The notes below the pieces were generated by a model, which was not told where the DNA came from, ran no database searches, and worked only from the letters and a program-made list of their open reading frames with translations. The position numbers and the translations under genes are program-made. Shown here in pieces: positions 16,113-51,631 of a stretch of 64,000 nucleotides of DNA; the stretch's first letter is position 1, and each line of letters begins with the position of its first letter. Origin of the DNA: Bacillota bacterium (lineage in GTDB: Bacteria > Bacillota_A > Clostridia > Lachnospirales > Lachnospiraceae); contig JAEZTQ010000068.1 of NCBI GenBank assembly GCA_023443625.1, forward strand, positions 93,562 to 157,561, written 5' to 3'.

Positions 16113-16142
16113 AGATTAGGTACCTCTTATATTTACATCTTA

Positions 16143-16156: not shown

Positions 16157-16282
16157 TCGAATATTATAAACCAACCCCTGTAAAACATCAAGAGTAATTT
16201 GGTTTTATGTTCTAAATTTAGAGATATGTTGGAGAATTATTAATTTAGATTACTAATAACGTATAAAAAGGGAATTTGCATA

Positions 16283-16328
16283 TTGACAAAATTTTGTAAG
16301 TAAGTAAAATTAATTGTAAGTACTTACA
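16283..16328 (+). promoter_or_regulatory. uxaA promoter and overlapping LacI-type operator
   Basis: TTGACA at 16283-16288 and TAAAAT at 16305-16310 are separated by 16 bp. The perfect palindrome TGTAAGTACTTACA at 16315-16328 covers the expected start site, an arrangement expected for repression. A half site (TTGTAAGTAAG) lies in the spacer at 16294-16304. Confidence 0.72.
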
Positions 16329-16366
16329 TGAAATCATCTATGTTAAGAAAGGGATTGGTATTTCAT

Positions 16367-24277: not shown

Positions 24278-24283
24278 AAAGGT

Positions 24284-26212: not shown

Positions 26213-26510
26213 TAAAAATAAATGTATTGGTTGTAAAAAATGCCTTCAGGTCTGTCCAGGAAGCCTAATCAAATTTGGTGAGGATCAGAAAGCATATATG
26301 AAATATCCAAAAGATTGCTGGGGCTGTTCTTCTTGTGTAAAGGAGTGTAAACAAGGAGCTATTTGCTTATACTTAGGTGCTGATATTGGTGGTATGGGAA
26401 GCAGACTTACTTCTAATATGGAGAAGGATATGGTTCGTTGGAAAATCACAAAAAATAATGGAGAAATCATAACCATTGACATAAATCGAAAGGATTCTAA
26501 TCAATATTAA
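26196..26510 (+). CDS. aprB: APS reductase beta subunit, 2x[4Fe-4S] ferredoxin
   Basis: This iron-sulfur subunit of about 104 residues feeds electrons to AprA. Two clusters are visible: CIGCKKCLQVCP near the N terminus and CWGCSSCVKECK about 30 residues later. They are followed by a C-terminal strand region (GSRLTSNMEKDMVRWKI) that in AprB proteins wraps around the alpha subunit. The ATG at 26196 lies inside the 3' end of aprA, with GAGGTGA 5 bases upstream. An in-frame GTG at 26187 is less likely. Confidence 0.88.
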   Translation: MSIAINKNKCIGCKKCLQVCPGSLIKFGEDQKAYMKYPKDCWGCSSCVKECKQGAICLYLGADIGGMGSRLTSNMEKDMVRWKITKNNGEIITIDINRKDSNQY

Positions 26511-26608
26511 AACAGTAAACACCTTATTAGGGGTGAAATGGCACTTTATAGTTTCAAGGAAGCATAGATTTATGTGAATAAAACAGGATATAGACAGGAG
26601 GAATACAG

Positions 26609-27508
26609 ATGAGTGAATTAACACATCTTGATGAATTAGAGGCAGAAGCAATATATATCATTCGAGAAGTTGCTGCTGAATGCGAGAAGCCGGTGATGCT
26701 TTATTCCATAGGTAAGGATAGTTCCGTAATGCTTCACCTGGCACTCAAGGCATTTTATCCAGAAAAACCTCCTTTTCCCTTCATGCATATCGATACTACC
26801 TGGAAGTTTCGGGAGATGGTTGAGTTTCGTGATAGGAAGGCTAAGGAATTAGGGATTGAGATGATAGTCCATAGTAATGAGGAGGGGTTGGCTCAGGGGA
26901 TTAATCCCTTTGACCATGGATCTGCTTATACGGATATTATGAAAACAGGTGCCCTAAAGCAAGGTCTGAAAAAATACGGTTTTACCGCAGCTTTTGGTGG
27001 CGGTCGCCGGGATGAAGAAAAATCCCGTGCTAAGGAGAGAATCTTCTCTTTTAGAAATGAAGAGCAGGCCTGGGATCCCAAAAACCAAAGACCTGAGATG
27101 TGGAAACTCTATAATACGAAACTTAACAAGGGTGAGAGTATGCGTGTTTTCCCCATTTCTAATTGGACAGAAAAAGATATCTGGCAGTATATCAAGCGAG
27201 AGAATATTGATATTGTATCCCTATATTACGCGAAGGAAAGACCTGTAATCTATCGGGACGATAATATTATTATGGTGGATGATGATAGAATCAAATTACT
27301 TCCTGGAGAAAAGGTGGAATATAAGAAAGTACGTTTTCGTACCTTAGGCTGCTATCCTCTTACCGGTGGCAATGAATCTGATGCAGTGACTCTTGATGAA
27401 ATTATAGAGGAAACTCTAAGTGCCGTTTCCTCAGAGAGGACCACGAGAGTCATTGATAATGAAGGAGCTGGCAGCATGGAGAGAAGAAAGAGGGAGGGAT
27501 ATTTCTAA
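26609..27508 (+). CDS. cysD: Sulfate adenylyltransferase subunit 2 (CysD)
   Basis: CysD is the catalytic subunit of ATP sulfurylase, which makes APS from ATP and sulfate with the GTPase CysN. The 299 residues match the family. Motifs include the PP-loop [30 protein letters not shown], the [20 protein letters not shown] block and the C-terminal [24 protein letters not shown] precedes the ATG. Its stop overlaps the cysN start (TAATG), so the subunits are translationally coupled. Confidence 0.95.
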
Positions 27509-29211
27509 TGAAGGGCTTATTAAAATTTATTACTTGCGGAAGTGTAGATGATGGAAAATCAACTCTCATTGGGCATATTCTTTATTCTTCAAAGTTATTA
27601 TATGCGGACCAAGAGAAGGCACTTGAACTGGATAGTAAGATTGGAAGCAGGGAGGGGGCCATTGATTATTCTTTATTGTTAGATGGGTTAATGGCGGAAC
27701 GAGAACAGGGTATCACCATTGATGTTGCCTATCGTTACTTTACAACGGACAATCGCAGCTTTATTGTTGCGGATACGCCAGGACATGAGGAATATACAAG
27801 AAATATGGCGGTGGGAGCTTCCTTTGCGGACTTATCTATTATCTTAGTAGATGCTAAACAGGGTGTACTAATGCAGACAAGAAGACATGCAAGAATTTGC
27901 GCCCTTATGGGAATAAAGCATTTTGTCTTTGCTGTTAATAAGATGGACTTGGTGGGATATCGACAGGCACGTTTCTTAGAGATTGAGAAGGAAATTAAAT
28001 CCTTAGCTAAAAAACTGGACTTAGAGAACATTCTTATCATTCCTATATCAGCCACGGAGGGGGATAATTTAACAAAGAATTCAACGAATATTCCTTGGTA
28101 TCAGGGTGAGGCATTATTAACCCATCTTGAGAATATAGACATTGCAAATTCCAATGAGGAGGAAGGTTTTTATCTACCAGTACAAAGGGTATGTAGACCA
28201 AATCATACCTTCAGAGGGTTTCAGGGAGAGATTGAAGCTGGTAGAATTCAGGTGGGGGATGAGATAATAACCTTACCCAGTAATGAGAAAGCCATTATAA
28301 AAAGCATTCATATAACGGATAGAGAAGTTCATAGTGCTATCAAAGGTCAGCCCGTTACCATTCAGCTTAATAAAGAGGTGGATGTATCAAGAGGCTGCGT
28401 GTTAACGAAGAATACCAACCTAACAACTAGTAAGCAGATTAGCGCAGCCCTACTTTGGATGGATGATTTGGAGCTTACGGCAGATAAAAACTATTTCATA
28501 AAAGTCGGTACGAAGCTTATCCCAGGTGTGGTGACTAATATTAAGCATAAAATTGATGTAAATTCAGGGGAAGAAGTATCTGTGAATCATTTGTCCAAGA
28601 ATGAGATTGCAGTATGCGAAATTACCCTAGCCGAGAAGATTGTGGTGGATAAGTTTAAGGTACATAGGAATTTAGGTGAATTAATTCTAATTGACCGTAT
28701 TACCAATATGACTTCCGCCTGTGGTGTTGTAGAAGAGATCAATCAAGAGGATAGTTTAGAACAGGAGAAAGTTGCATTCTATTATGAGGATTTAAGGGCA
28801 AGAGGAGATATCTTTGAAGAGTTTTATTATAATTTAGAAAGCTCCTCCATCTCTAAATTCAAGGCTGTGAAAAACACCTACACCTTAGGAGGTGAGATAC
28901 CTATCCAAGGAGAGAGCTATCACTATCCAGAAAGCTTTGATATTTTGGTATTGCGAGATAATGTTGCCATTCAAGTTCGCAGCAAGAAGATAGCTAAAAT
29001 CCAGCCAATTGGTGAATATCAATATACAGGGCTACCCATTACCAATGGTAGGGGCTTTGCAGTGAAGGCTAGCTCCCAAGGAGAGGTAGAGGCTTTCCTT
29101 CGGGAATACCAAAACCTAGGGGATAGCAATGAAGACGCCTTCGCCAATAAGTGGGTAAGTTTTGAAACCTACCGTAGGGTGGTGTTTCACAACAACTTTT
29201 GGGTGATATAA
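27508..29211 (+). CDS. cysN: Sulfate adenylyltransferase subunit 1 (CysN GTPase) with C-terminal extension
   Basis: CysN is the EF-Tu-like GTPase that drives APS synthesis by CysD. G motifs are present: CGSVDDGKSTLIG, REQGITIDVAYR, DTPGHEEYTRNM and NKMDLVG, followed by two beta-barrel domains. At 567 residues it is about 90 longer than the ~475-residue enterobacterial protein. The extra C-terminal part (about 440-567) includes SFDILVLRDNVAIQVRSKK. It is not an APS kinase domain, since no second P-loop is present there, and I do not recognise its function. It is the last gene of the operon. Confidence 0.93.
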   Translation: MKGLLKFITCGSVDDGKSTLIGHILYSSKLLYADQEKALELDSKIGSREGAIDYSLLLDGLMAEREQGITIDVAYRYFTTDNRSFIVADTPGHEEYTRNMAVGASFADLSIILVDAKQGVLMQTRRHARICALMGIKHFVFAVNKMDLVGYRQARFLEIEKEIKSLAKKLDLENILIIPISATEGDNLTKNSTNIPWYQGEALLTHLENIDIANSNEEEGFYLPVQRVCRPNHTFRGFQGEIEAGRIQVGDEIITLPSNEKAIIKSIHITDREVHSAIKGQPVTIQLNKEVDVSRGCVLTKNTNLTTSKQISAALLWMDDLELTADKNYFIKVGTKLIPGVVTNIKHKIDVNSGEEVSVNHLSKNEIAVCEITLAEKIVVDKFKVHRNLGELILIDRITNMTSACGVVEEINQEDSLEQEKVAFYYEDLRARGDIFEEFYYNLESSSISKFKAVKNTYTLGGEIPIQGESYHYPESFDILVLRDNVAIQVRSKKIAKIQPIGEYQYTGLPITNGRGFAVKASSQGEVEAFLREYQNLGDSNEDAFANKWVSFETYRRVVFHNNFWVI

Positions 29212-33488: not shown

Positions 33489-34748
33489 TCATTGCTTTGC
33501 ATATTGTTTTGGCGTTAGCCCGGTATATTTCTTGAAAACCTTAGAGAAATAGCTTTGATCCTCAAAGCCTGTAGCAATAGCAATATCAATAATAGAATAA
33601 TCGGTATTAGCTAAAAGTCGCTTACTTTCCTCAATCCGAACCATATTAAGATATTCCTTAAAGGAAGAGCCTGCAGATTGTTTAAAAACGGATGAAAAAT
33701 AAGCAGGATTTAGATGGACATGATTTGCCACTTCTTCCAGGGTAACATTGCTTGAAAAATTATTGGATATATATAACATTGCTTTTTTCATAAGCTCATA
33801 ATTCTTAGAGGGAATATAATTAAACATAGATTCAGTGAAGACTTCTACGCTTTCTTGAAGCTTAAAGCACAAGGAATCTAAGTCGTTGATTTGTTGTAAG
33901 GATTTTAAAAACTGATTATTAATCTTTAGGATGCTATCTGTGGCTGCACCACCTTCAATGGCGGCCCGGGATAGGAGGGAGCAAAGCTCAATTGCTCTAG
34001 CCTTTACTGTCTCAAGCCTGTTTCCCCCAGAAAATAGGACATATCCCAAAAGGTCATTTAATATTCCCTTTGCTTCTTGAGAATTTCCTGCTTTCACTTT
34101 AGATATCAGGGCTTTCTCCTTATCGTAGGGATAAGGATTGGCTGTAGTCACACCGGAGTTCTTATACATATGAATGGATTCACTAATTTTAGATTGTTGG
34201 TGCAGTTTTCCCTGATTTATGATTAATTGCTGTTTTCCCTCCAAAATTAGACTAGAGAAAAGATAATATAGTAATCTGCTTATGTGGGTAACGGTACTGG
34301 GTGGGATTACTTTAATACTACCGGTTTCTTCATACAATTCAATGAGTGAGTCCGTAGGTATTTCATATTTTTTGTCAATATCAAGAATTAATAGGGAATC
34401 TGGTGTATCCATTAGGAATGGACCTACGAGAATTGATCCCCAGAAGGAGCCACTATTTAATAGAGGAAATACAATATGATTTAAATTGGCATGACAGGAG
34501 AAAATATAAGTTTCTCCTATGCTGATAGCCCTTTTACTGGCATTAATATGAAGCTTTTCACAGGTTTCGGTTGAGGGCAAATATCTTTTGAAGATACCAC
34601 AAAAATTAGTGGTAAGACCATAGGATTCTAAGATGGCACCCTTTTCATCGATGAGTTGAATGGGTAGTCCTATGCAAGCTTCAAAGGCTTCAAGCATTTC
34701 TCTTAAATGATTTTTTTCAATTACTGTATATAAATAGGGTTGCTGCAT
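33489..34748 (-). CDS. AraC-family regulator with PocR ligand-binding domain
   Basis: This 419-residue protein has an N-terminal PocR sensory domain (LREMLEAFEACIGLPIQLIDE, CEKLHINASKRAI, FSCHANLNHIVFPL). That domain family is found in regulators of corrinoid-dependent and propanediol metabolism. The last ~100 residues are the AraC double helix-turn-helix (TLEEVANHVHLNPAYFSSVF, IAIATGFEDQSYFSKVFKKY). It is divergent from the corrinoid-protein gene, 224 bases away, and is the obvious candidate to regulate it in response to a methylated or C1-type substrate. The ligand is not known. Confidence 0.87.
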   Translation of the reverse strand: MQQPYLYTVIEKNHLREMLEAFEACIGLPIQLIDEKGAILESYGLTTNFCGIFKRYLPSTETCEKLHINASKRAISIGETYIFSCHANLNHIVFPLLNSGSFWGSILVGPFLMDTPDSLLILDIDKKYEIPTDSLIELYEETGSIKVIPPSTVTHISRLLYYLFSSLILEGKQQLIINQGKLHQQSKISESIHMYKNSGVTTANPYPYDKEKALISKVKAGNSQEAKGILNDLLGYVLFSGGNRLETVKARAIELCSLLSRAAIEGGAATDSILKINNQFLKSLQQINDLDSLCFKLQESVEVFTESMFNYIPSKNYELMKKAMLYISNNFSSNVTLEEVANHVHLNPAYFSSVFKQSAGSSFKEYLNMVRIEESKRLLANTDYSIIDIAIATGFEDQSYFSKVFKKYTGLTPKQYAKQ

Positions 34749-34972
34749 ATCTTCATCTCCTATACCAAATTTTAGATACTTATGATTATATCACAGAATA
34801 TATAAAATAAATGCATTCTTTCTAAAAGTTTTACATGATAATGGCTAGAATTATGGTATACTAAGAGTAAAGACAAAATAACAATTAGACTTTTTCTGAT
34901 TTCTATTTAACTAGGAAGTAGACATCAGATAGTTCAGTAGTGCAAACGAATGATTATTGGGAGGTAATTATT

Positions 34973-35614
34973 ATGTCATTAATTAATGAAATTTCAGAGT
35001 TTTTACAAAAAGGTCGTGCAAAAAATGTGAAAACATTAGTGCAACAGGCAATTGATGAAGGTTTAAATCCAAAGGAGATTTTAAACGAGGGACTACTTTC
35101 GGGTATGATGACCATCGGTCAGAAATTTAAGAATAACGAAGTCTTCGTACCAGAGGTATTAGTGGCAGCAAGAGCTATGAATGCAGGTCTAGAAATTCTT
35201 GAGCCTAAACTCATTGAGGTTGGTAATGAGCCCATTGGTAAAGCGGTAATCGGTAGCGTAAAAGGTGATTTACATGATATCGGTAAGAACCTTGTTACTA
35301 TGATGTTAAAGGGTGCTGGCTTAGAAATCTATGATATTGGTATTGATGTGGAAGCAGAAGCGTTTGTAGAGAAGGCAGAAGAAGTAGGTGCTGATTTTAT
35401 CTGTATGTCAGCTTTATTAACAACAACTATGCCTCATATGAAAGAGATTATTGATTTGTTAAATGAAAAAGGCTTAAGAGAGAAATACGTTGTTATGGTA
35501 GGCGGTGCTCCTGTAAACCAAAGCTTTGCAGACCAAATCGGCGCAGATATCTACACTTCTGATGCAGCTTCAGCAGCGGCAAAAGCAAAGGAAGTAATGT
35601 TGGCTAAGCAATAG
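34973..35614 (+). CDS. Methyltransferase corrinoid protein (B12-binding, MtaC/MtbC-like)
   Basis: This protein of about 213 residues carries a cobalamin cofactor that shuttles methyl groups between methyltransferases. An N-terminal helical cap (residues about 1-85) precedes a Rossmann-like B12-binding domain. The base-off DxHxxG motif is in KGDLHDIGKN, with His101 as the lower cobalt ligand, followed by the SALLTTTM segment and GGAPV. The ATG at 34973 is preceded by GGGAGGTAATTATT; the longer frame from 34940 lacks support. Substrate is not evident. The activator gene follows and a URO-D-type protein lies 7.3 kb downstream. Confidence 0.9.
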   Translation: MSLINEISEFLQKGRAKNVKTLVQQAIDEGLNPKEILNEGLLSGMMTIGQKFKNNEVFVPEVLVAARAMNAGLEILEPKLIEVGNEPIGKAVIGSVKGDLHDIGKNLVTMMLKGAGLEIYDIGIDVEAEAFVEKAEEVGADFICMSALLTTTMPHMKEIIDLLNEKGLREKYVVMVGGAPVNQSFADQIGADIYTSDAASAAAKAKEVMLAKQ

Positions 35615-35639
35615 ACTCTACATATATAAATATAATTCA

Positions 35640-35668
35640 AGGGCAAGACCATTTACATGGTTCTTGCC
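35640..35668 (+). terminator. Hairpin after the corrinoid gene
   Basis: GGGCAAGACCA (35640-35650) pairs with TGGTTCTTGCCC (35657-35668) with one bulge. The following ATACTTATATTA is only weakly T-rich, so partial termination or processing is likely. Confidence 0.55.
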
Positions 35669-35817
35669 CATACTTATATTATAATAAAAGTACAAATCCT
35701 AATCTTGCAGGTGGGATATATTTATACTATACTAATATATAAAAAGACTTTTTAACACCATAATTCATACTGTGATACATAGGAAGACGGGATATTATAC
35801 AGAATCGAGGGCGATAT

Positions 35818-36489
35818 ATGAAGGACTTTGTGAAAGTAACAGATTTTGAATTAAAACTTGATAGGGATAATGTGTTTCACCTCATAGATTGTTATCCAGA
35901 CAATCCTGTTTATGAGGACGTTATAATGGAGTTTGAAGACGTAGCAGAAGAGGCACTCAAGTGCATTAAACCCGTAGCATTCTATAAATTTGGTCAGATG
36001 TCCGAGGAGGTTTTTCTACAGATTGAGGAGATTGATGACTGCCATGTACCTGTGATTTATTGTTTACTCTCCATTGGTGATGAGATTACAGAACTGGCGA
36101 GTTCTTATTTTCAAAAAGGTGATTATCTGGTGGGGATGATAATCAATGCCATAGCAGATACCTATTTATTTCAGATGGATACTTTCTTTCAAGCTAAAAT
36201 AAGTGAGGACTGTAAACATAGGCATGTAGGAATTGCCAGGAGACTGGATGCTCCTGTGGATATGCCCATGTGTATACAAAAAAGTATCCTGGAAGAAATA
36301 AAAGAATTCGAAAGCCTTACTATGGACGTTACATCAGGTTTTATGTATACTACAGTAAAAACCACGGGCTATATTCTGGTTCTATCAGAGGATGAGAGCC
36401 AGAATAACGGAAAGCATGATTGTAGTAAATGTAATGCAAAAAATTGTAAGATGAGAAAAACTCCTAGTATAAAGGATAATGAAAGCTAG
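35818..36489 (+). CDS. MetH-activation-domain-like protein, probable corrinoid-related factor
   Basis: This 223-residue soluble protein resembles the stand-alone vitamin B12-dependent methionine synthase activation domain family. It has the CLLSIGDEITELASSYFQKGDYLVGMIINAIAD stretch (quoted as key residues around 82-115) and a RLDAPVDMPMCIQ segment. In MetH this fold binds SAM for reductive remethylation of cob(II)alamin. The last ~25 residues have a Cys cluster (CSKCNAKNC), which could bind a metal or Fe-S centre. Position after the corrinoid protein suggests it reactivates that protein. It overlaps the end of the convergent AraC gene by 4 bases. Confidence 0.68.
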   Translation: MKDFVKVTDFELKLDRDNVFHLIDCYPDNPVYEDVIMEFEDVAEEALKCIKPVAFYKFGQMSEEVFLQIEEIDDCHVPVIYCLLSIGDEITELASSYFQKGDYLVGMIINAIADTYLFQMDTFFQAKISEDCKHRHVGIARRLDAPVDMPMCIQKSILEEIKEFESLTMDVTSGFMYTTVKTTGYILVLSEDESQNNGKHDCSKCNAKNCKMRKTPSIKDNES

Positions 36490-37385
36490 CTGGAAGGTTT
36501 CATATCCGCAGTTTGCTCTATGCTTTGATTTGCCTTACGATATTCATTTGCAGATTGTTTATAATAGCGCCGAAAGGCATAGGAAAAATGTTCAACAGAG
36601 GAATAGCCTAAATCATGGGCAATATCCGTAATTCGTTTATTTGAATCCATCAATAAGATAGCAGCAGCAGACATCTTTGCTTCTGCTTTTTTTTGTAGGA
36701 AAGTTTTACCATAATGTCGCTTTAGTAGGCGCTCTGTTTGTCTTGGACTTAAGCCTAGGCGACGAGATAGATCCTCTAAGGATAAGTCTTTATATTCATA
36801 TAGAAAATATTCTTCAATAACAAAATACTTACTATATGCTAAATCAAAGGGTTTAGATGGATTGTGTGAAACCTTTGTGCTTTCATAATTGCGAACCAGT
36901 TGTATGACTAACTGTTGTAATAGAGTTTCCACTTGCTTCATATAGCCGGTAAACTTCTTTTCTAATTCCAAGAATATCTCCTGCATCAGGGGATGGATGC
37001 TTTGGGTATCCTGCCCATACCATATCCTTGTATCCTCAAAAATTTGTAAGTAGGTATCACCCATATCGGCCTTTCTATGGCTATTCTTCTTATCCAACTT
37101 TAAATAAATACAATACTCAATCATGGGATCCTCTTTATCCGGAATTTGTTCATGTTCTATATGAGGTCCTGTGACATAGAGGGTATTTGGCTCTACCCGG
37201 TATGTAACATTGTTGATTTTTACCTTCCCTTTACCAAAAGGAATATAGTGAATCTCATAACTATTATCACTGTGACTGTGACTGGGAATAGATCTTAAGA
37301 AACGCTCACAAGCAAAATGTAGGGCGTAAAATGTTGTGTTCTCCATTGAAAACTTAATATTAAGATCATTATAAGAAATTCTCAT
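36486..37385 (-). CDS. AraC-family transcriptional regulator of the dehydrogenase/GH31 operon
   Basis: This regulator of about 299 residues has an N-terminal cupin sensor (HSHSDNSYEIHYIPFGKGKV) and a C-terminal AraC DNA-binding domain (SLEDLSRRLGLSPRQTERLL, DIAHDLGYSSVEHFSYAFRR). The ATG at 37385 has GGAGGTAAGA directly upstream, so the frame start at 37397 is not used. It is divergent from the zinc dehydrogenase gene across a 306-base gap, which suggests control of the sugar operon starting there, probably by a sugar inducer. Confidence 0.85.
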   Translation of the reverse strand: MRISYNDLNIKFSMENTTFYALHFACERFLRSIPSHSHSDNSYEIHYIPFGKGKVKINNVTYRVEPNTLYVTGPHIEHEQIPDKEDPMIEYCIYLKLDKKNSHRKADMGDTYLQIFEDTRIWYGQDTQSIHPLMQEIFLELEKKFTGYMKQVETLLQQLVIQLVRNYESTKVSHNPSKPFDLAYSKYFVIEEYFLYEYKDLSLEDLSRRLGLSPRQTERLLKRHYGKTFLQKKAEAKMSAAAILLMDSNKRITDIAHDLGYSSVEHFSYAFRRYYKQSANEYRKANQSIEQTADMKPSS

Positions 37386-37691
37386 TCTTACCTCCAAACC
37401 TGTACAGGTTTTCTGTGTATCTTAGTTTGTGCTAACTGAAACATAGGATATCTTCTTGCATTCATGCTACCAAATTAATGAGGAACAGTCAATACAAAAC
37501 CTTCGAAAAGACGACATGAACAAGTTAAGAATGTCACATGTATCTATTATATATAAATTTACTTCTGTTATAATGAAATTACAGTTAAAAAAATAAATTC
37601 TATTAACCCAATTTTTAGTTAATTGCCCATACTCATAAATTAAATGTTTCGCAATTGACTAAGCCCAATTTTTATACTAGGAGGTAATATA
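37386..37691. other. Divergent regulatory region between AraC gene and dehydrogenase
   Basis: The 306 bases are AT-rich. A TTATAATG at about 37568-37575 is the best -10 candidate for the plus-strand operon, but the -35 is poor, as expected for an activator-dependent promoter. AGGAGGTAATATA precedes the dehydrogenase ATG. No RNA element or small gene was seen. Confidence 0.5.
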
Positions 37692-38765
37692 ATGGAACTT
37701 GTGAATAGAAAAATGAAAGGTGCTATTTTACCAGGTAACAGCACAGTAGAGATTAAGGAGTTTGATATACCAAAGCCAGGACATGGACAGGTGTTAATCA
37801 AAACAAAAGCAACAACAATCTGTGGAAGCGATATACGTTGTATCTATAGAGAGCATTTAGGAAAAGGTCCTGAGGGCTATATTCCTGGTATGATTGCAGG
37901 ACATGAGCCCTGTGGTATTGTTGTAGAAGAAGGCGAAGGCTTAAAGAGATTTAAAAAAGGCGACCGGGTTATTGTATATCATATCTCCGGTTGTGGTGTA
38001 TGTAATGATTGTCGTAGAGGATACTATATCTCTTGTTCCAGCCCTCACCGTGCAGCTTACGGCTGGCAGAGAAATGGCGGTATGGCACCTTACATCATAG
38101 CAGACGAGAAGGATCTAATTACCCTGCCTGACGAATTAACATACAAAGATGGTGCTCAGGTTGCATGCGGTTTTGGTACTGTGTATGAAGCAATCGAGAA
38201 GATTGGTGTATGTGGTAATGATGCTGTATTGGTAACTGGTCTTGGCCCTGTTGGATTAGCAGTGTTAATGCTTGCAAAAGTTATGGGAGCAAATAAGTTA
38301 ATCGGTGTTGAAATTAACGATAAACGTATTGAGCTTGCGAAGAAACTTGGTTTAGTAGACCATGTATTCAAACCAGGTGAAGATACCTTAGATAAAATTC
38401 TTGAAGTAACAGGTGGACGTGGTGTTGAACGTGCTCTTGATTGCAGCGCTAACGATGCTGGCAGACAATTGGCAATTAGAGCTACTCGTGAGTGGGGCAA
38501 AATTGCATTTGTTGGAGAAGGCGGTACTTGTACTTTCAATCCTAGCCCTGACATTATCCATGGACAAAAGACCATCTATGGTTCTTGGGTAACAAGCTTA
38601 TGGAGAATGGAAGAGTTGGTGGAGCGTCTTGTTCGTTGGAATATCCATCCAGAAGATTTAATAACGGATGAATATGAGTTAGAGCAGGCAGCAGAAGCTT
38701 ATGCCCTTATGGCTGAGGGAACTTGTGGTAAAGTAGCAGTCGTATTTGGCGACCAGAATGAATAA
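37692..38765 (+). CDS. Zinc-dependent medium-chain alcohol/polyol dehydrogenase
   Basis: This 357-residue MDR enzyme oxidises or reduces an alcohol or sugar with NAD(P). Catalytic zinc ligands are in TICGSDIR and GHEPCG. The structural-zinc lobe CGVCNDCRRGYYISC is complete, and the Rossmann motif reads VTGLGPVGLAVLML. The group resembles threonine/sorbitol dehydrogenases; substrate is unknown. It is the first gene of a probable operon with an aldo/keto reductase, a FucU-type mutarotase and GH31, so a sugar or sugar-alcohol substrate is likely. Confidence 0.87.
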   Translation: MELVNRKMKGAILPGNSTVEIKEFDIPKPGHGQVLIKTKATTICGSDIRCIYREHLGKGPEGYIPGMIAGHEPCGIVVEEGEGLKRFKKGDRVIVYHISGCGVCNDCRRGYYISCSSPHRAAYGWQRNGGMAPYIIADEKDLITLPDELTYKDGAQVACGFGTVYEAIEKIGVCGNDAVLVTGLGPVGLAVLMLAKVMGANKLIGVEINDKRIELAKKLGLVDHVFKPGEDTLDKILEVTGGRGVERALDCSANDAGRQLAIRATREWGKIAFVGEGGTCTFNPSPDIIHGQKTIYGSWVTSLWRMEELVERLVRWNIHPEDLITDEYELEQAAEAYALMAEGTCGKVAVVFGDQNE

Positions 38766-38798
38766 GCCTTATCTAATACTTTGGAATGGAGAGTTATG

Positions 38799-39806
38799 AT
38801 GAGTAATAAAGTTGATGTAAATGCTGTACCAAAAAGTAAACTATATACGGGAGCTGCCATTCCCATGATGGGGATAGGTACCTTTGGCTCAGATAAATAC
38901 TCTGGACAACAAATTGCAGATGCAGTATATGGAGCAATCAAAGTGGGATATCGATTAATCGACTGTGCCTCCGTGTATCAGAATGAGGATAGCATCGGTG
39001 AAGTCCTTACTAAAGTAATAAAAGAGGGAGTTGTTACAAGAGAAGAGTTGTTTGTGACTTCCAAAGTATGGAATGATAAACATCGTGATGTAATTAATTC
39101 CTGTAAAAAGAGTCTAAGGGATTTACAATTAGACTATCTGGATTTATACTTTGTACATTGGCCCTTCCCCAATTATCATGCACCAGGTTGTGATGGAGAT
39201 TCAAGAAATCCAGATTCCAGACCTTTTAGCCTGGATGAATTTATGGATACTTGGAGACAGTGTGAAGAGCTAGTAGAGCTGGGATTAGTCAAGCATATAG
39301 GTATGAGTAATATGACTATACCAAAATTAGAATCAGTCCTGCCTTTATGTAAAGTGAAACCCGCTGCTCTTGAGATGGAACTACATCCAAGCTTTCAGCA
39401 ACCAGAGCTGTTTGAGTATGCCCTAGCACATCAAATAGTACCCATTGGATATTGTCCCATCGGTTCTCCTTCCAGACCGGAAAGAGATCGTACAGCAGAA
39501 GATGTGGCAGATACCCAAATACCTGAGATAGAAGCCATTGCCAAAGCCCATGGTGTACATCCGGCAATTATTTGCTTAAAATGGGCAGTACAAAGAGGTC
39601 AAATACCTATTCCATTTTCCGTTAAGGAAGCCCAGTATCTTAGTAATCTAAAATGTTGTACCGAAGATCCTTTAACTGACGAAGAGATGGCAATCCTCCA
39701 GGGTGTGGATAAAAACTGCCGACTCATCAAAGGTCAAGTCTTCTTATGGGAAGGTGCAAAGGGTTGGGAAGATCTTTGGGATTTAGATGGAACAATCACT
39801 AAATAA
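38799..39806 (+). CDS. Aldo/keto reductase
   Basis: This AKR-superfamily TIM-barrel oxidoreductase of about 335 residues uses NAD(P)H. The catalytic tetrad is visible as Asp55 and Tyr60 (LIDCASVYQNE), Lys89 (FVTSKVW) and His120 (DLYFVHWPF). The insertion NYHAPGCDGDSRNPDSRP after the His is typical of sugar-reducing members. ATG codons at 38796 and 38799 are both possible after GGAGAG; the second has the better spacing. It lies 33 bases after the dehydrogenase gene. Pairing of an AKR with an MDR dehydrogenase suggests oxidoreductive isomerisation of a sugar. Confidence 0.86.
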   Translation: MSNKVDVNAVPKSKLYTGAAIPMMGIGTFGSDKYSGQQIADAVYGAIKVGYRLIDCASVYQNEDSIGEVLTKVIKEGVVTREELFVTSKVWNDKHRDVINSCKKSLRDLQLDYLDLYFVHWPFPNYHAPGCDGDSRNPDSRPFSLDEFMDTWRQCEELVELGLVKHIGMSNMTIPKLESVLPLCKVKPAALEMELHPSFQQPELFEYALAHQIVPIGYCPIGSPSRPERDRTAEDVADTQIPEIEAIAKAHGVHPAIICLKWAVQRGQIPIPFSVKEAQYLSNLKCCTEDPLTDEEMAILQGVDKNCRLIKGQVFLWEGAKGWEDLWDLDGTITK

Positions 39807-39861
39807 AAGACAAATTAAGAACATTATGCAAGGCTGCAAAGAGCAGTAGAAAGGAGGATAT

Positions 39862-40302
39862 ATGTTAAAAGGAATACCACAAATATTATCTCCAGAATTA
39901 TTAAAGGTATTATGTGAAATGGGACATAGTGACAGACTGGTTATTTCCGATGGTAACTTTCCAGCAGAGTCTATGGGTAAGAATGCCATTGTAATCAGAT
40001 GTGACGGTCATGGCGTACCAGAAATCTTAGATGCAATATTAAAATTATTCCCTCTAGATACCTATGTTGATCATCCCGTTAATCTCATGGAGGTTATGCC
40101 AGGGGATAAGGTAGAGACTCCAATTTGGGATACCTACAAAGAAATCGTAGGAAAATACGATACAAGAGGTGAAAAAGCAGTTGGTAATATTGAACGTTTT
40201 GAGTTTTATAAAGAGGCTCAGACCGCATACGCTATTATCGCTACTAGTGAAAAGGCACTTTATGCTAATGTTATGCTTCAAAAAGGCGTAGTCGTAGAAT
40301 AA
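39862..40302 (+). CDS. fucU: RbsD/FucU-family sugar mutarotase
   Basis: This 146-residue protein belongs to the RbsD/FucU family, which interconverts anomers of fucose or ribose. FucU-like features are LKGIPQILSPELLKVLCEMGHSD (quoted in part: MGHSDRLVISDGNFPAES), the RCDGHGVPEIL segment and the C-terminal ANVMLQKGVV. The general base His (in GHSD) is present. AAAGGAGGATAT precedes the ATG. L-fucose fits the family branch, but no fucose isomerase, kinase or aldolase is in the window, so the true sugar is open. Confidence 0.85.
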   Translation: MLKGIPQILSPELLKVLCEMGHSDRLVISDGNFPAESMGKNAIVIRCDGHGVPEILDAILKLFPLDTYVDHPVNLMEVMPGDKVETPIWDTYKEIVGKYDTRGEKAVGNIERFEFYKEAQTAYAIIATSEKALYANVMLQKGVVVE

Positions 40303-40332
40303 TAATTGATACATAAGATAAATGTTGTACTA

Positions 40333-40378
40333 TACAAGTGTCTGGTGCTTATTATAATAAGGACCAGATACTTGTTGT
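40333..40378 (+). terminator. Possible terminator between fucU and the GH31 gene
   Basis: CAAGTGTCTGGT pairs with ACCAGATACTTG, allowing a G-U pair, with an inner CTTATTATAATAAG stem. A short T-rich tail follows. It may attenuate rather than end the operon. Confidence 0.55.
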
Positions 40379-40448
40379 TACTATATCGTAACAAAATCAT
40401 AGCAGCATTATATATAGCCCATATAAGAAGGCAGAATGGAGTTTACTC

Positions 40449-42824
40449 ATGTTAGATGTTAAGAAAAGACCGGGAAGACAAATTACCCAGGTCAAAAGAG
40501 TTGAAGATGCCCTAATTCTTAATACCAATCATGGTAGCATCAAGTTAGAGCCCAAATCAGCTGGGATTATCCGAATTGTTTACACCTTAAAGGAGAGCTT
40601 TTCCACAGAGGAAAAACTGGGTATCACATGTAAGGCCAGCTTTGGCCATTGGACTTTTGAAGAGACAGAGAAGGAAATTAATTTAGTAACCAGTAAATTA
40701 AGAGTACAGATTGTGAAAGAAACAGCCTCCATCAAGTACTTTGATAAGGACAATCAACTTCTTTTGGCAGAAAGAGATGTGGAAAGTAAGAACCTTGATG
40801 AATTTGATTCTTATTTGACTGTTGTAGATGAAAATACAAAAATTGAGCGTGTTGTTACCCCTGATGGGATCAAAGAATTTGTGAAAGATGCTAAAAAAGT
40901 ATTCGACCAGAAACTATATAGAACCAGACTATATTTAGACTGGCAGGAAGAAGAAGCACTCTATGGCTTAGGCCAGCAGGAAGAGGGTAATTTAAATCTT
41001 CGAGGAACCACCCAGTATTTACACCAGGCGAATCTAAAAATTGCCATTCCCTTGTTAGTATCAAGTCTTGGATATGGTATCTTAATGGATACCTACAGCC
41101 CTATGATCTTTAATGATACAGCTTACGGCTCCTATTTATACACAGAAGCCGATTATGAGATGGATTATTATTTTATCTACGGGGAGAATATGGATGGCGT
41201 TGTTGCTGGATATCGCTATTTGACAGGTAAGGCAGCTATGTTACCAAAATGGGCTTTTGGTTTTATGCAATCCCAGGAGCGTTATGAGACTGCTCAGGAA
41301 ATAATTGAGATTGTAAAGGAACATAGAAGGAGAAAGATTGGACTAGATTGTATAGTCCTTGATTGGTGGTCCTGGGAAGGGGAACTATGGGGTCAGAAAA
41401 CCTTTGATAAGTCTCGTTTCCCCGATCCTACGGCAATGATGGACGAGATTCATGCAGACCATGCTAACCTTATGATATCCATTTGGCCAAATATGAGTAG
41501 AGATAGTGAGAACTATAAGGAATTTGAGGAAAAGGGCCATTTATTACCTGCCAGCAGCATATATGACGCCTATAGCGAAAAAGGAAGAAAACTTTATTGG
41601 AAACAAGCCAAGGAAGGATTGTTCCAACATGGAATAGATGCCTGGTGGTGTGATTCTAGTGAACCCTTTACTCCAGAATGGAGCCATATTAGTAAGCCGG
41701 AACCTAGTACCATGTATCATGAGTTCTATGATACTTCAAGTCAATATATACCTTCCCAGCTAACCAATGCTTATGGATTATATCATGCAAAAGCCATGTA
41801 TGAAGGCCAAAGAGAAGTGACAGAGGAAAAGCGTGTCATTAATCTGACCCGTAATGGTTATACTGGACAACAAAGATATGGTGCAATTCTTTGGTCTGGG
41901 GATATTGCTACCAACTGGAGTACCCTTAGAAAGCAGATTGTAGCTGGTCTTAATCTATGTGCCAGTGGTATTCCTTACTGGACCTTGGATATTGGCGCAT
42001 TCTTTGTTAAGAAAGGCGAGCAGTGGTTCTGGAATGGGGAATATGAGAAGGGATATGAAGATTTAGGCTTTAAGGAAATCTTTACCCGTTGGTTCCAATT
42101 TGGATGTTTCCTACCCATCTTTAGAAGCCATGGAACAGACTTTAGAAGGGAAATGTGGAAGTTTGGTGACGAGGGAGAACCTTTCTACGATGCACTGGTT
42201 AAGATGAATCGTTTGCGTTATGAGTTAATGCCTTATATCTATTCTACAGCAGCAAAGGTTTGGAAAGATGATAAGACCATGATGAGAATGTTGGCCTTTG
42301 ATTTTGCCAAGGATAAGAAGGCTAGAACTATTGATGACCAGTATCTCTTTGGTGATTCTCTGATGGTTTGCCCTGTTACAAAACCCATGTATTATGAGAA
42401 GAACTCGGAGGTTCTAGAAGGGGTTGCTAAGACAAGAGAAGTTTATCTTCCAGAGGGCTGTGGCTGGTATGATTTCTGGACAAATGAGTATTATGAAGGT
42501 GGTCAAACAATTATCGCAGATGCACCACTGGATATCCTACCTATCTATGTAAAAGCAGGTAGTATCTTACCAATGACACAGGTGATGCAATATGTGGATG
42601 AAATCCCCAATGCACCCATTGAAGTTCGTGTATATACTGGTAAGGATGCAGAGTTTGAGATTTATGAGGATGAGGGCAATAGTTATCGATATGAAGAGGG
42701 TAAATATGCAGTAACGAAACTTAACTGGTCAGACAAGGATCAAAAGCTAACAGTAGGAGAACCAGTGGGAAGTTTTGATAACATGGTAAAAGACCGTGAA
42801 TACAGAATTACTCTTGTTATATAA
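40449..42824 (+). CDS. GH31 family alpha-glycosidase (alpha-xylosidase-like)
   Basis: This 791-residue intracellular enzyme has the GH31 architecture: an N-terminal beta-sandwich with LYGLGQQEEG, a TIM barrel starting at KWAFGFMQSQERY, and C-terminal sandwiches. The nucleophile Asp402 lies in DAWWCDSSEPF, and the acid/base region is the SHGTDFRREMW stretch. GLDCIVLDWWSW is the strand typical of alpha-xylosidase and related subgroups. It probably removes alpha-xylosyl or another alpha-glycosyl group from an imported oligosaccharide. The gene lies downstream of the fucU-type gene and upstream of the URO-D gene on the same strand. No signal peptide is present. Confidence 0.88.
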   Translation: MLDVKKRPGRQITQVKRVEDALILNTNHGSIKLEPKSAGIIRIVYTLKESFSTEEKLGITCKASFGHWTFEETEKEINLVTSKLRVQIVKETASIKYFDKDNQLLLAERDVESKNLDEFDSYLTVVDENTKIERVVTPDGIKEFVKDAKKVFDQKLYRTRLYLDWQEEEALYGLGQQEEGNLNLRGTTQYLHQANLKIAIPLLVSSLGYGILMDTYSPMIFNDTAYGSYLYTEADYEMDYYFIYGENMDGVVAGYRYLTGKAAMLPKWAFGFMQSQERYETAQEIIEIVKEHRRRKIGLDCIVLDWWSWEGELWGQKTFDKSRFPDPTAMMDEIHADHANLMISIWPNMSRDSENYKEFEEKGHLLPASSIYDAYSEKGRKLYWKQAKEGLFQHGIDAWWCDSSEPFTPEWSHISKPEPSTMYHEFYDTSSQYIPSQLTNAYGLYHAKAMYEGQREVTEEKRVINLTRNGYTGQQRYGAILWSGDIATNWSTLRKQIVAGLNLCASGIPYWTLDIGAFFVKKGEQWFWNGEYEKGYEDLGFKEIFTRWFQFGCFLPIFRSHGTDFRREMWKFGDEGEPFYDALVKMNRLRYELMPYIYSTAAKVWKDDKTMMRMLAFDFAKDKKARTIDDQYLFGDSLMVCPVTKPMYYEKNSEVLEGVAKTREVYLPEGCGWYDFWTNEYYEGGQTIIADAPLDILPIYVKAGSILPMTQVMQYVDEIPNAPIEVRVYTGKDAEFEIYEDEGNSYRYEEGKYAVTKLNWSDKDQKLTVGEPVGSFDNMVKDREYRITLVI

Positions 42825-42932
42825 TCCATAAATAAGATCAAAAGCAATCCAGAATAAATATCGAACAAAGAGCAAAAGCAAGGATTGGTGCGAAGATTGA
42901 ACTTACACTAATTTGACAAATGGAGGATTACT

Positions 42933-44072
42933 ATGAAATATAAGAAGAATTGGGAAGAGACCCAAAAGAAATGGGAAAGCTACTGGAAGAGACAAAATAC
43001 AGGAAGACCCTTAATGTGTGTATGGGGTACCAAAGAAGAAGCAAGGGATTTAGAAAGAGAAGCAGCACTTAAGCCAACCAGCATGGAAGATAAATATCAG
43101 GATGCTGAGCGTATGGTAGAGCGTTTCCGTTATTTTTGTGAAACGACGGAGTTCTTAGGAGAGAGCTTCCCTAACATCAGCCTTGATTTTGGCCCTGGTT
43201 CTATGGCAGGCTATCTTGGTAGCAATATCGTATTTAACGAAGATACAGTATGGTTTGAAGAGTGTGTAGAAGATTGGCTTGATTATAAGGATTTAGAATT
43301 TGACCCAGAGAATGCATGGTTTAAAAAACATATTGCATTATTTAACAAGGTAAAAGAGCTTGCTGGTGATGATTTCTTAATTGGAATTCCTGATATTATG
43401 GAGAACATAGATGTATTGGCTTCCATGAGAGGCGCCCAGGATACCATCTTTGATATGATTGATGAGCCTGAAGAAATGACTAGAAGAATTGGACAGATTG
43501 ATGATATTTATTTTAAGTATTACGATCAATTCTATGATATTGTTAAAGCAGATGACAATTCCTCTTGTTATACCGTGTTCCAGATTTGGGGACCTGGTAA
43601 AACCGCTAAGTTACAATGTGATTTTTCTGCTATGATGTCACCGGATAATTTCCGTGAATTCATTCAAGAATCCTTAAGAAGACAAGCAAAGCAGTTAGAC
43701 AATGTGATTTATCACCTAGATGGACCAGATGCAATCAAACATTGTGATGCCATTATGGAGATCGAAGAAATTGATGCACTGCAATGGACAAGTGGTGACT
43801 ATGGCCCAGATGGAACCTTTGAAGAATGGTATGAAATCTATGATAAAGCAGTAGCAGCAGGCAAGGGGCTTTGGGTCAAGGTATATTCAGGGGAGTTTGA
43901 AAGCTGGCTAGAGAGACTGGATAAGTTAATTGCCAGATATGGTACCAACGCATTATTCTTATATTTTAATCCTATGCCTATAGAACAAGCAGAGAGATTG
44001 ATGGAATATGCAGAGAAGAATTGGTGTGATATCGAAGGAAGTTATGTAAAAGAATTAAAAGGGAAAAAATAA
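42933..44072 (+). CDS. Uroporphyrinogen decarboxylase (URO-D)/MtaA-like family protein
   Basis: This 379-residue soluble TIM-barrel protein belongs to the URO-D superfamily branch that includes the corrinoid methyltransferases MtaA, MtbA and CmuA. Such proteins are sometimes annotated as trimethylamine corrinoid protein 2. It is unlikely to be a heme enzyme, because the N terminus (WEETQKKWESYWKRQNTGRP) and gene context differ from HemE. The region where MtaA-type enzymes carry a HxC zinc motif reads YHLDGPDAIKHCDAIME here, so the zinc site is not conserved in the usual form. It follows GH31 by 108 bases. A role in methyl transfer from a sugar-derived substrate is inference. Confidence 0.72.
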   Translation: MKYKKNWEETQKKWESYWKRQNTGRPLMCVWGTKEEARDLEREAALKPTSMEDKYQDAERMVERFRYFCETTEFLGESFPNISLDFGPGSMAGYLGSNIVFNEDTVWFEECVEDWLDYKDLEFDPENAWFKKHIALFNKVKELAGDDFLIGIPDIMENIDVLASMRGAQDTIFDMIDEPEEMTRRIGQIDDIYFKYYDQFYDIVKADDNSSCYTVFQIWGPGKTAKLQCDFSAMMSPDNFREFIQESLRRQAKQLDNVIYHLDGPDAIKHCDAIMEIEEIDALQWTSGDYGPDGTFEEWYEIYDKAVAAGKGLWVKVYSGEFESWLERLDKLIARYGTNALFLYFNPMPIEQAERLMEYAEKNWCDIEGSYVKELKGKK

Positions 44073-44400
44073 ATAAGGCATACTTTGTTAGGTTAGTGAA
44101 TTAATGAAGTAATTTATCAACTTATTAAAGTAATAATGTATTAAAGTACGTTAAGGTAATCTTAACGTACTTTTTTTACATTTGAATATCTGTTTTTGGG
44201 TTTTGATTGTCATTAATTGCTATGTTTATATCAAATATTGCCATAATGAGGTAAAAGTCTTGTACTTGTTATCAAGATTTATTAATATAATATATATAAA
44301 ATATTAGAAGAATATGTAATAAGTCACCATGTAAAATTTGACCAAACATAATGTTGCTATTCTCGTGTAAAAGACAACTTTAAGATACAGGAGGTGCAAA
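44073..44400. other. Intergenic region before the aldouronate operon
   Basis: The 328 bases contain the URO-D terminator at 44143-44178, then AT-rich DNA that must hold the promoter of the GH2 operon; no confident -35/-10 pair was picked. The last bases, CAGGAGGTGCAAA, are the ribosome binding site of a TTG-started gene. Confidence 0.55.
44143..44178 (+). terminator. Terminator after the URO-D gene
   Basis: AAAGTACGTTAAG (44143-44155) pairs with CTTAACGTACTTT (44161-44173) over a 5-base loop and continues as a T run. It ends the dehydrogenase-to-URO-D transcript. Confidence 0.88.
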
Positions 44401-49924: not shown

Positions 49925-51631
49925 ATGAAAAAGTTTATTTCTATGTTACTTGCCTGCATGATGATAATTTCACTTGCGGCTTGTGGCGACAAAAAGGAAA
50001 CTGAAAACGAACCTACTCCACAACCAGGCGTTACATCAGACACAAAGGATACTTCAAAAGATACTCCAATGGAAGAACAAGAAATCGTAGATGGTAAATT
50101 TGTTAAAACAAGAGAAATTACCGTGGAAGTTTATGACCGTGATAATGATGGCGGTTCTGACCCAACAGACAATTTCTACACAAAATTTATTCAAGAGGGA
50201 ATGTTACGTGACCATAATGTAAAGGTTACTTTTGTAGCTGTTCCTCGCTGGACAGAAGTTGAACAGATTAATAACTTACTTGCATCTGCTTCTGCACCTG
50301 ATATCTGTATTACCTATGACTACCCTACAATCCAGACTTATGCTGGAATGGGCGGTGTAACTGATTTAAACAAGCCTGTGGAAGAGTACAAGGACATGTT
50401 ACCCAATTTATGGGATTGGTTAGGAACCACCAATATGTATTGGGATAAAAATCCTACCTACGGCACCTTATGGGCAATAGAAACAAAGCTTGCAGTTATG
50501 AATCGTACCAGTACTTTCGTGCGTGAAGATTGGTTAAAGAAGCTTAACCTTGCAGAGCCTACATCCCTAGAAGAATTTGAAGCGATGCTGGTAGCATTTA
50601 GAGATAATGCAGAGACACTTCTTGGTGCTGATGCAGATAAGATAGTTCCATTATCTATCAGCTATGATGTGGGCTGGCGTGCAGATCATTTGATTGGATC
50701 TTTTGCACCAAATGATATTACAGATAAGGATGTTTTTGTATATGGCTTTGATGATAGAAAATTAACCTTCCCAGGAACCAAGGAAGCTATCAGAGTATTA
50801 AATAAGTGGTACAATGATGATTTAATCTGGAAGGATTTCGCTCTTTATCCTGCAGGAGATACTACAGAAGACAATATGATGAAAGCTGGCTATGTTGGTG
50901 CATTTATGCATAACTGGGATTATCCTTACCGTAATGCCGAGAACAGTATTCAGTATAGCTTAACGCAGATGGTTTCTCCTGAAGCTGGTTATATAGCCAT
51001 CGAACCATTTAAGAATGATGCAGGCGTCTACAAGAAATTCCTATCTGGACCTGTAGATAGAAAAGTCTTCTTCCCTATCACCAATGATGAACTTTTGGCC
51101 TCTCTTTTATATCTTGATTGGATCAGTAAGCCTGAGAATCGTCAGTTCCTTCAGATTGGAGAAGAAGGTGTAACCCATGAGGTTCAGGCAGATGGTTCTG
51201 TAAAGACAATTGCTGGAACAGGCGACAAGATTATGAACTCACCAAATAACATCGACTATACTTTAACCTGTAATGGTCTAGAATTAGGTGATGCTGAGAA
51301 AACAATTAAGTCCATTGCAAACAACTATGCCAATGTTGATAAGCGCTTCATTGAAAAGGCATTCCCTATTTCTGCAAGAGACGGACGTATTGGACAGAAT
51401 GTAAAAGCGGGAACAATTAAATCTGAGGAAGGCATGGGCCCTGCACTTAGCTCCAAACGTGATATATTACTTGATCAGGCAGTAGTAGCCTCTGTTGATA
51501 AATTTGATGAAGTATTTGACTCTGGTATGAATGATTACTTAGCTTCTGGTGGTCAGGCAATTATTGATGAACGTAAAGCGGCTTGGGAAAAAGCTTTTGG
51601 TGATGTTACTGCCCTTCCTGAGGACAAATAA
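49925..51631 (+). CDS. lplA: Extracellular oligosaccharide-binding lipoprotein, LplA type
   Basis: This 568-residue solute-binding protein has a lipoprotein signal ending in SLAAC (Cys20) and a Thr/Pro/Glu-rich linker. The large two-lobed binding domain of the LplA/YtcQ type includes EQINNLLASASAPDICITYD and the FVREDWLKKLNLAEPTSLEEF stretch in its middle. TAGGAGGGTAAAAA precedes the ATG. It probably captures aldouronates released by secreted xylanases. Its length and neighbours match that group; ligand is inferred from aguA downstream. Confidence 0.9.
   Translation: MKKFISMLLACMMIISLAACGDKKETENEPTPQPGVTSDTKDTSKDTPMEEQEIVDGKFVKTREITVEVYDRDNDGGSDPTDNFYTKFIQEGMLRDHNVKVTFVAVPRWTEVEQINNLLASASAPDICITYDYPTIQTYAGMGGVTDLNKPVEEYKDMLPNLWDWLGTTNMYWDKNPTYGTLWAIETKLAVMNRTSTFVREDWLKKLNLAEPTSLEEFEAMLVAFRDNAETLLGADADKIVPLSISYDVGWRADHLIGSFAPNDITDKDVFVYGFDDRKLTFPGTKEAIRVLNKWYNDDLIWKDFALYPAGDTTEDNMMKAGYVGAFMHNWDYPYRNAENSIQYSLTQMVSPEAGYIAIEPFKNDAGVYKKFLSGPVDRKVFFPITNDELLASLLYLDWISKPENRQFLQIGEEGVTHEVQADGSVKTIAGTGDKIMNSPNNIDYTLTCNGLELGDAEKTIKSIANNYANVDKRFIEKAFPISARDGRIGQNVKAGTIKSEEGMGPALSSKRDILLDQAVVASVDKFDEVFDSGMNDYLASGGQAIIDERKAAWEKAFGDVTALPEDK

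Follow-up and report, generated by a model that had tools for sequence, protein, structure and literature searches.

Introduction

The corrinoid O-demethylases of acetogens, represented by OdmB and VdmB, follow a four-part logic of substrate methyltransferase, corrinoid protein (CoP), second methyltransferase and ATP-dependent activator. In the available part of the source, OdmB and VdmB are termed UroD superfamily phenolic O-demethylases (PMC10418091), and an mlp cluster is defined, in a likewise partial source, by the presence of two or more Mlps together with a CoP and a Ram protein. The nearest fused enzyme in the literature searched, as far as the accessible text goes, is an artificial cobalamin methyltransferase fusion (PMC9930637). 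For sugars, the accessible part of the literature searched describes only an oxygen-dependent demethylation, in which a cytochrome P450 of algae-eating marine bacteria acts on 6-O-methyl-galactose (PMC10033563), and the available portion of a pectin proteome paper reports cobalamin-biosynthesis genes among substrate-specific proteins and no corrinoid methyltransferase (PMC4441647). Here we describe a block of genes on a Lachnospiraceae contig (JAEZTQ010000068.1; block at positions 33489-44072) in which genes for corrinoid methyl transfer stand together with genes for sugar use; the window is the whole stretch of 64,000 nt that was analysed.

An O-methylated sugar cannot enter central metabolism, and anaerobic removal of sugar methyl ethers appears undescribed in the literature searched; the open-licence literature, a scope outside which most subscription papers lie, yielded no report of a sugar ether being demethylated by a corrinoid system. 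We propose, with somewhat more confidence than doubt, that the block encodes a corrinoid-dependent O-demethylation of an O-methyl sugar within an alpha-xyloside operon, the most likely substrate being 2-O-methyl-D-xylose of rhamnogalacturonan II (RG-II). Within this reading, predicted methyl transfer is well supported and a sugar ether is the likely substrate. From gene content, predicted fold, fusion, gene order and co-occurrence, all read from sequence, we infer the exact sugar, the direction of methyl flow and the acceptor. The first-pass annotation of this DNA had already suggested sugar O-demethylation; all the genes that it named in the block were recovered at their positions by domain, profile and fold matches (Table 1), and its link between corrinoid methyl transfer and sugar catabolism is borne out by the fusions, the flanking GH31 genes and the GH138 linkage described below.

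A URO-D-fold protein linked to corrinoid methyl transfer

The protein encoded by the last gene of the block, which resembles uroporphyrinogen decarboxylase (URO-D), matched no Pfam family, not even at E<=10, and did not reach the gathering threshold of PF01208, and searches of the Protein Data Bank (PDB) with its sequence or with the profile of its family found nothing related. Its kinship to the URO-D superfamily therefore rests on the predicted fold and on profile alignment with hhalign. The AlphaFold model (predicted local distance difference test (pLDDT) 93.5) matched uroporphyrinogen decarboxylases and an M. mazei methyltransferase (4zr8, 4ay7) at 11-12% identity; 4ay7 (E 2.4e-7) is presumably MtaA of M. 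mazei. The hhalign comparison of the URO-D-like family with nine PF01208-type proteins of related loci gave a probability of 96.7% (E 3.7e-10); six of the nine (L035, L058, L081, L084, L089 and L091) were scanned, and all matched PF01208, that of L058 over a slightly longer stretch. The C-terminus of one such protein, encoded near a CoP gene (L081:8248-9600), gave a weak match of the thioredoxin type (E 1.8e-4, under the curated cut-off).

In the alignment, the first PF01208-type relative has its HxC opposite H261-L-D263 of the URO-D-like protein; a gap stands opposite the second Cys found in the relatives. We take the HxC (HxC...C) motif to be the zinc site of MtaA. The residues Tyr260, His261, Asp263, Gln284 and Trp285 were invariant in 81/81 URO-D-like sequences, and the MtaA/MtbA-type HxC...C zinc site was absent from the URO-D-like protein, Asp263 being present in all 81. 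Retention of the fold with loss of HxC would fit a methyltransferase that draws its methyl group from a non-thiol substrate. A total of 952 proteins of the family matched at E<=0.001, some of which are labelled in databases as 'trimethylamine corrinoid protein 2' or as homocysteine methyltransferase; the former label was not borne out, the URO-D-like protein of the window having no B12-binding match.

Relatives were surveyed in one genome per species over 84,980 species, and the best 80 of 219 places were kept as loci, in which genes were called by a home-made score of open reading frames (ORFs) and not by a published tool; many of the loci end at contig ends. The URO-D-like domain was fused with pterin-binding (methyl-folate:corrinoid methyltransferase type) and B12-binding domains, in the order pterin-B12-URO-D, in 21 of the 80 loci, which include Blautia, Robinsoniella and others. 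Twenty of these fusions are single chains of 939-994 aa, and in L065 the parts are encoded by overlapping frames of 753 and 216 aa. The fused proteins cluster in the tree (3 label changes vs 18.9 in shuffles), and close to them lie the proteins of L030, L048 and L056, where a separate pterin methyltransferase gene stands near the URO-D-like gene. The gene order of L058, from a metagenome-assembled genome of Propionibacteriaceae, is solute-binding protein, permease, permease, GH31, URO-D-like, CoP, RACo, DUF2284-like and MtaA-like PF01208 protein; in L013 GH31-URO-D-like has MtaA-like and PocR genes divergent from it. Given the fusions and these two gene orders, the URO-D-like protein can hardly be read otherwise than as a predicted part of corrinoid methyl transfer. 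Its partnership, as the proposed sugar-ether:corrinoid methyltransferase (MT1), with a CoP is thus drawn from relatives, in which the two are fused or, as in L058, adjacent; in the window their genes are 7.3 kb apart.

The MtaA-like PF01208 genes of L084 (8304-9335), L058 (14067-15053) and L013 (4422-5441) lie near PocR/CoP or GH31-URO-D genes, and the proteins of L084 and L058 have an HNC motif. It is possible that such proteins are the second methyltransferase, with perhaps a thiol as acceptor. A gene for DUF2284, a predicted metal-binding protein, lies between RACo and the fusion in L046 (7403-7939), and RACo has members of the same cluster as neighbours in L020 and L058 too. A nucleoside-hydrolase-like gene was found near the URO-D-like gene in 6/80 loci (e.g. 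L004:9078-10004, L103:2648-3571).

The fused form shares its pterin and B12 modules with MetH, and MtaA-type relatives, as far as the partial sources go, methylate a thiol, so that the flow might be reversed and the system might methylate a sugar or a thiol from methyl-folate. We regard this as highly improbable, because HxD here takes the place of the HxC found in MtaA-like relatives and the setting, with glycosidases and importer genes, is catabolic. RACo-type activation, moreover, is typical of demethylases.

Glycosidases accompanying the URO-D-like gene

The GH31 protein encoded directly upstream of the URO-D-like gene had BoGH31A as its top PDB match (E 2.7e-160), and GH31 genes of its cluster lay within the flank of the URO-D-like gene in 37/80 loci. 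L001 has FucU-GH31-URO-D-like as in the window, and the start of a GH95-type gene (PF14498) behind transporter genes; FucU relatives at 85-86% identity occur in L001 and L009. In 11/80 loci, a gene for an 891-aa protein was located within 400 bases of the URO-D-like gene on the same strand. This protein matched BPa0997 in the PDB (E 7e-170), which we take to be GH138. In L016 the genes run GH31-URO-D-GH138, their junctions being a gap of 1 base and an overlap of 4 bases. GH138 enzymes, according to the title of Labourel 2019, target the chain A galacturonic acid of RG-II.

Co-occurrence was examined in 299 genomes from the family of Eisenbergiella tayi (Lachnospiraceae), with Fisher p values that ignore kinship between genomes. 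Nineteen genomes were taken to carry the URO-D-like gene (best E < 1e-170); 24/299 matched at 1e-30, from which G032, G236, G254, G269 and G307 were dropped. The window-type GH31, counted at E<=1e-140, was present in 34/299 genomes, including 18/19 with the URO-D-like gene (p 1e-18); at 1e-80 it was present in 50/299, and again in 18 of the 19. GH138 was present in 11/299 genomes, all 11 of which were among the 19 (p 2e-15). In five of these 11 (G004, G014, G015, G112 and G287) a single contig carries GH138, GH31 and the URO-D-like gene within a 28-kb span, and in the other six at least one of the three is on another contig. The clusters of the five genomes hold varied sets of GH95, GH29, GH42, GH2, GH78, GH28-type and glucuronyl-esterase-type genes, and that of G112 has an apiosidase (PF13204, E 8.9e-102; PDB 8t9w 'Apiosidase', E 7.3e-62). 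In Eisenbergiella, one GH138 cluster holds relatives of both the GH31 (60%) and the URO-D-like protein (71%) of the window. Of the GH2 proteins compared, that of the window resembles only the one of L111 (23% over 328 aa), and the GH2 of the RG-II-type cluster L104 had no PDB match at E<=1e-20.

According to the available part of PMC12168206, RG-II contains 2-O-methyl-xylose (side chain A) and 2-O-methyl-fucose, and RG-II alpha-1,3-xylosyltransferases attach xylose to L-fucose. Use of a terminal 2-O-methyl-alpha-xylosyl unit on L-fucose would need an alpha-xylosidase, for which GH31 is the candidate, and would free L-fucose, a suitable substrate for FucU, while the methyl ether would be left to block the use of the xylose. 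The arrangement FucU-GH31-URO-D-like of the window and of L001 fits these needs. The single RG-II linkage that Bacteroides thetaiotaomicron does not cut reportedly involves 2-O-methyl-xylose. Two groups of substrates had been named in the first-pass annotation, 4-O-methylglucuronate and 2-O-methyl-xylose or 2-O-methyl-fucose; the evidence favours the second group, with 2-O-methyl-xylose first.

That the same corrinoid machinery acts on 4-O-methylglucuronate freed by GH67 from glucuronoxylan appears distinctly improbable. The GH67 gene, announced as lying about 12 kb downstream, is indeed found there, 11.9 kb past the end of the block, and the window also carries UxuA, GntR and GH3 downstream and UxaC upstream, all of which would suit such a substrate. 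However, neither GH67 (27/299 genomes; 3/19 with the URO-D-like gene, p 0.40) nor GH115 (57/299; 5/19, p 0.38) was associated with the URO-D-like gene in the co-occurrence check that the first-pass annotation had suggested, and a tblastn search of the DNA of the 80 related loci, the closest two (L001 and L002) among them, gave no match to the GH67 or the UxuA of the window. A terminator-like site separates the two gene blocks, and we know of no GH31 that acts on glucuronosyl linkages.

Another O-methyl sugar, varying by clade, for instance 2-O-methyl-L-fucose (RG-II chain B) or 3-O-methyl-rhamnose, is a rather unlikely substrate. Consistent with it are GH95 (8 of the 80 loci), GH29 (7) and GH106 (10), the last always on the strand of the URO-D-like gene and no more than 400 bases from it (e.g. 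L042:11146-14208; one of the 10 was scanned), and FucU inside the operon of the window, but the glycosidase that adjoins the URO-D-like gene in the window, in L001 and in L002 is GH31 of the alpha-xylosidase type.

Corrinoid protein, activation protein and regulator

The CoP has the motif DLHDIG at residue 110 of its longest ORF, which begins at GTG 34940; judged from the Shine-Dalgarno-like GGGAGG preceding it, ATG 34973 is the likely start. The protein scored 213 bits against TIGR02370, just under the cut-off of 215.3, and matched PDB 1y80 (E 5.8e-58). The activation-type protein likewise stayed without a Pfam hit at E<=10. Its family profile matched PDB 1j6r (TM0269, MetH activation; E 3.4e-4), and the top 19 Foldseek matches of its AlphaFold model (pLDDT 82.4) were activation domains of MetH, or fragments of MetH that include one. 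Near CoP genes, relatives encode nine proteins of 735-797 aa whose N-terminal part shares 35-45% identity with the activation-type protein, as does a stand-alone 211-aa domain of L087, also near a CoP gene; RACo domains follow the activation domain in both long proteins scanned (L081, L089). RACo is an ATP-dependent corrinoid reactivator.

Twenty neighbourhoods of CoP genes were sampled (L081-L100), and members of the PocR-type, RACo-type and PF01208-type clusters were found near the CoP gene in 12, 13 and 9 of them, respectively; in 8, a PocR relative at 65-83% identity stood beside a CoP relative. A stand-alone CoP relative was present in 18/19 genomes with the URO-D-like gene (ten at 73-80% identity and eight at 51-60%). 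Across the 299 genomes, matches to CoP at E<=1e-30 (263/299) were uninformative, many of the listed matches lying in MetH-looking frames of 800-900 aa, and only those at >=71% identity were counted.

The CoP and activation genes might serve an unrelated methylotrophy on methanol, methylamine, betaine or an aryl ether and lie here by chance, with the URO-D-like protein acting otherwise on a sugar. The CoP resembles MtgC/MtbC, the CoP of relatives is usually at another locus than the URO-D-like gene and often near PF01208 proteins, and 15 of the 26 genomes with a CoP at >=71% lack the URO-D-like gene. Nevertheless we consider this improbable: it is the URO-D-like domain itself that the 21 fusions and the L058 operon connect with partners of the CoP and methyltransferase kinds, and the proteins scanned inside the block and around it included none of the MttB or MtaB type, so that the use of methanol, methylamine or betaine, held by the first-pass annotation to be the plain alternative, lacks its substrate-specific methyltransferase in the block. 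Within the proposed sugar demethylation, several URO-D-fold methyltransferases may draw on the CoP as a common carrier.

Arrangement of the window

The genes from the alcohol dehydrogenase to the URO-D-like gene (37692-44072) are likely one transcription unit, as a terminator-like hairpin follows the URO-D-like gene; such sites numbered 10 in the window vs 8.7 by chance in shuffles, a slight excess only. The PocR, CoP and activation genes form a separate divergent module, set apart from the sugar operon by the divergent AraC-type gene. The FucU-type mutarotase scored 122.5 bits, below the cut-off of 141 of the NCBIfam L-fucose mutarotase model. A promoter scan of the window gave 59 sites vs 49.2 expected and was given no weight.

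Table 1. Positions of the features in the window and the matches by which they were assigned
Feature	Position	Strand	Evidence or remark
PocR-sensor and AraC-type regulator	33489-34748	-	PF10114 PocR E 2.4e-28, HTH_18; divergent from the corrinoid gene
Corrinoid (methyl-carrier) protein, CoP	34973-35614	+	B12-binding E 2.1e-27; DxHxxG; Shine-Dalgarno-like sequence at start
Corrinoid-activation domain protein (MetH-activation fold), 223 aa	35818-36489	+	Profile match to 1j6r; Foldseek
AraC-type regulator	36486-37397	-	HTH_18 E 2.1e-19, AraC_binding; divergent from the sugar operon
Zinc-type alcohol/polyol dehydrogenase (ADH)	37692-38765	+	PF00107, PF08240
Aldo/keto reductase (AKR)	38781-39806	+	PF00248 E 1.4e-54
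RbsD/FucU mutarotase, L-fucose type	39862-40302	+	PF05025 E 4.6e-44
GH31, alpha-xylosidase type	40449-42824	+	Four best PDB matches all alpha-xylosidases
URO-D-fold protein, 379 aa, proposed MT1	42933-44072	+	Predicted fold, hhalign, conserved residues, fusions
Terminator-like hairpin	44143-44173	+	14-pair stem, 3-base loop, T run; consensus match only
GH67	55979-58003
UxaC, LacI regulator, altronate dehydratase	13656-17860		UxaC at 13656, altronate dehydratase at 16328
FAD-binding, PAPS-reductase-type and GTP-binding EF-Tu-like genes	24260-29211		Consecutive
568-aa protein	49925-51631		Zero Pfam matches at E<=10

Downstream of the block lie GH2, two ABC permeases, the 568-aa protein, UxuA, GntR, GH3, GH67, a SASA esterase and GH127. 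The position of the 568-aa protein behind the two permeases suggests a solute-binding protein. The UxaC, LacI and altronate dehydratase genes, about 16-20 kb upstream of the block, point to uronate catabolism, and the FAD-binding, PAPS-reductase-type and EF-Tu-like genes look like a sulfate assimilation cluster. A tblastn search of the 64-kb window gave no match for a RACo or MeTr domain, for an MtaA-like gene or for GH138; if sugar demethylation is the correct reading, the second methyltransferase and the RACo domain must be encoded outside the 64 kb.

Evidence weighing against the proposed substrate and pathway

Several findings weigh against the proposed demethylation of an RG-II sugar. The CoP gene was in the flank of only 1/59 unfused loci (L058), and the CoP would therefore usually act in trans; FucU was found in just 2/80 loci; and the cut-offs for true members in the co-occurrence sample were chosen after the scores had been seen. 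Because the window lacks GH138, and by that marker is not itself an RG-II locus, because G001 and G002, its closest relatives, also lack it (5/16 genomes have it), and because the downstream genes of the window (GH67, GH3, GH127 and acetylesterase) are of the xylan type, the organism may serve another methylated xyloside. GH138 was likewise absent from 8/19 genomes with the URO-D-like gene. Neither GH31 nor another of the sampled glycosidases was in the flank in 23/80 loci (12 of them unfused), although some of these flanks end at contig ends; as GH106 adjoins the gene in 10 loci, substrates may differ among clades of the family.

The fate of the methyl group is a further such point. In 10/19 genomes with the URO-D-like gene, the sole pterin-domain match was 27-32% identical and lay in a MetH-looking frame of 800-908 aa; G006 has a second, partial pterin-domain match beside the MetH-like one. 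The MtaA-like protein of L084 has relatives at 53-100% identity in 9/19 of these genomes.

Proposed pathway and its significance

In the pathway that we propose, the substrate would come from 2-O-Me-alpha-Xyl-(1,3)-L-Fuc of RG-II chain A, a source that would account for the L-fucose-type mutarotase. A methyl-sugar oligosaccharide would be imported by an ABC transporter, and GH31 would remove the terminal alpha-xylosyl unit. The URO-D-fold protein would then bind the methylated sugar and transfer its methyl group to the Co(I) of the corrinoid protein, from which a second methyltransferase, of the pterin/MeTr type in the fused systems and possibly MtaA-like PF01208 elsewhere, would move it to folate or a thiol. 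Stray Co(II) would be re-reduced by the activation-domain protein with an ATP-dependent RACo partner.

A wider proposal, for which we see grounds for belief and for doubt in equal measure, is that this family of URO-D fold, for which Pfam has no model, is dedicated to the anaerobic demethylation of sugar ethers, namely of RG-II methyl sugars and above all of 2-O-methyl-xylose, and passes the methyl group to one-carbon metabolism, and that Blautia and relatives hold substrate methyltransferase, corrinoid carrier and folate methyltransferase in one polypeptide. If true, the corrinoid route would complete RG-II use in Lachnospiraceae, gut and rumen bacteria could use methylated RG-II sugars, and pectin breakdown would be linked to one-carbon metabolism and vitamin B12. 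The family would gain a testable function, and the natural three-module fusion would be a ready-made single-chain demethylase.

Comparison with known systems

The proposed system would share its four-part logic with the acetogen O-demethylases. Enzymes of the OdmB/VdmB type act on phenyl methyl ethers, whereas the URO-D-like family, compared with them here on published descriptions, has no Pfam match, occurs in loci of the alpha-xyloside and RG-II type and is fused with its partners in about a quarter of the loci. With MtaA and the mlp (SCMT-like) proteins it shares the URO-D fold, as the 4ay7 match suggests; unlike them, it has HxD in place of HxC, and the neighbours of its gene are glycosidases. 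Like MetH, the fused form combines pterin and B12 modules in a single chain, and the window adds the fold of the MetH activation domain, but the fused form has a URO-D-like domain instead of the homocysteine domain and the order pterin-B12-URO-D.

The P450 route likewise strips a methyl ether from a sugar derived from a polysaccharide. The P450, however, is a monooxygenase that makes formaldehyde, whereas the corrinoid system would need no oxygen and would keep the methyl group as a one-carbon unit. Relatives of the GH138 and apiosidase types, known from RG-II degradation by Bacteroides (GH138, GH140 and others), also occur in clusters with the URO-D-like gene; these clusters differ from the Bacteroides system, as far as the available parts of the sources describe it, by the addition of a putative methyl-sugar demethylase gene.

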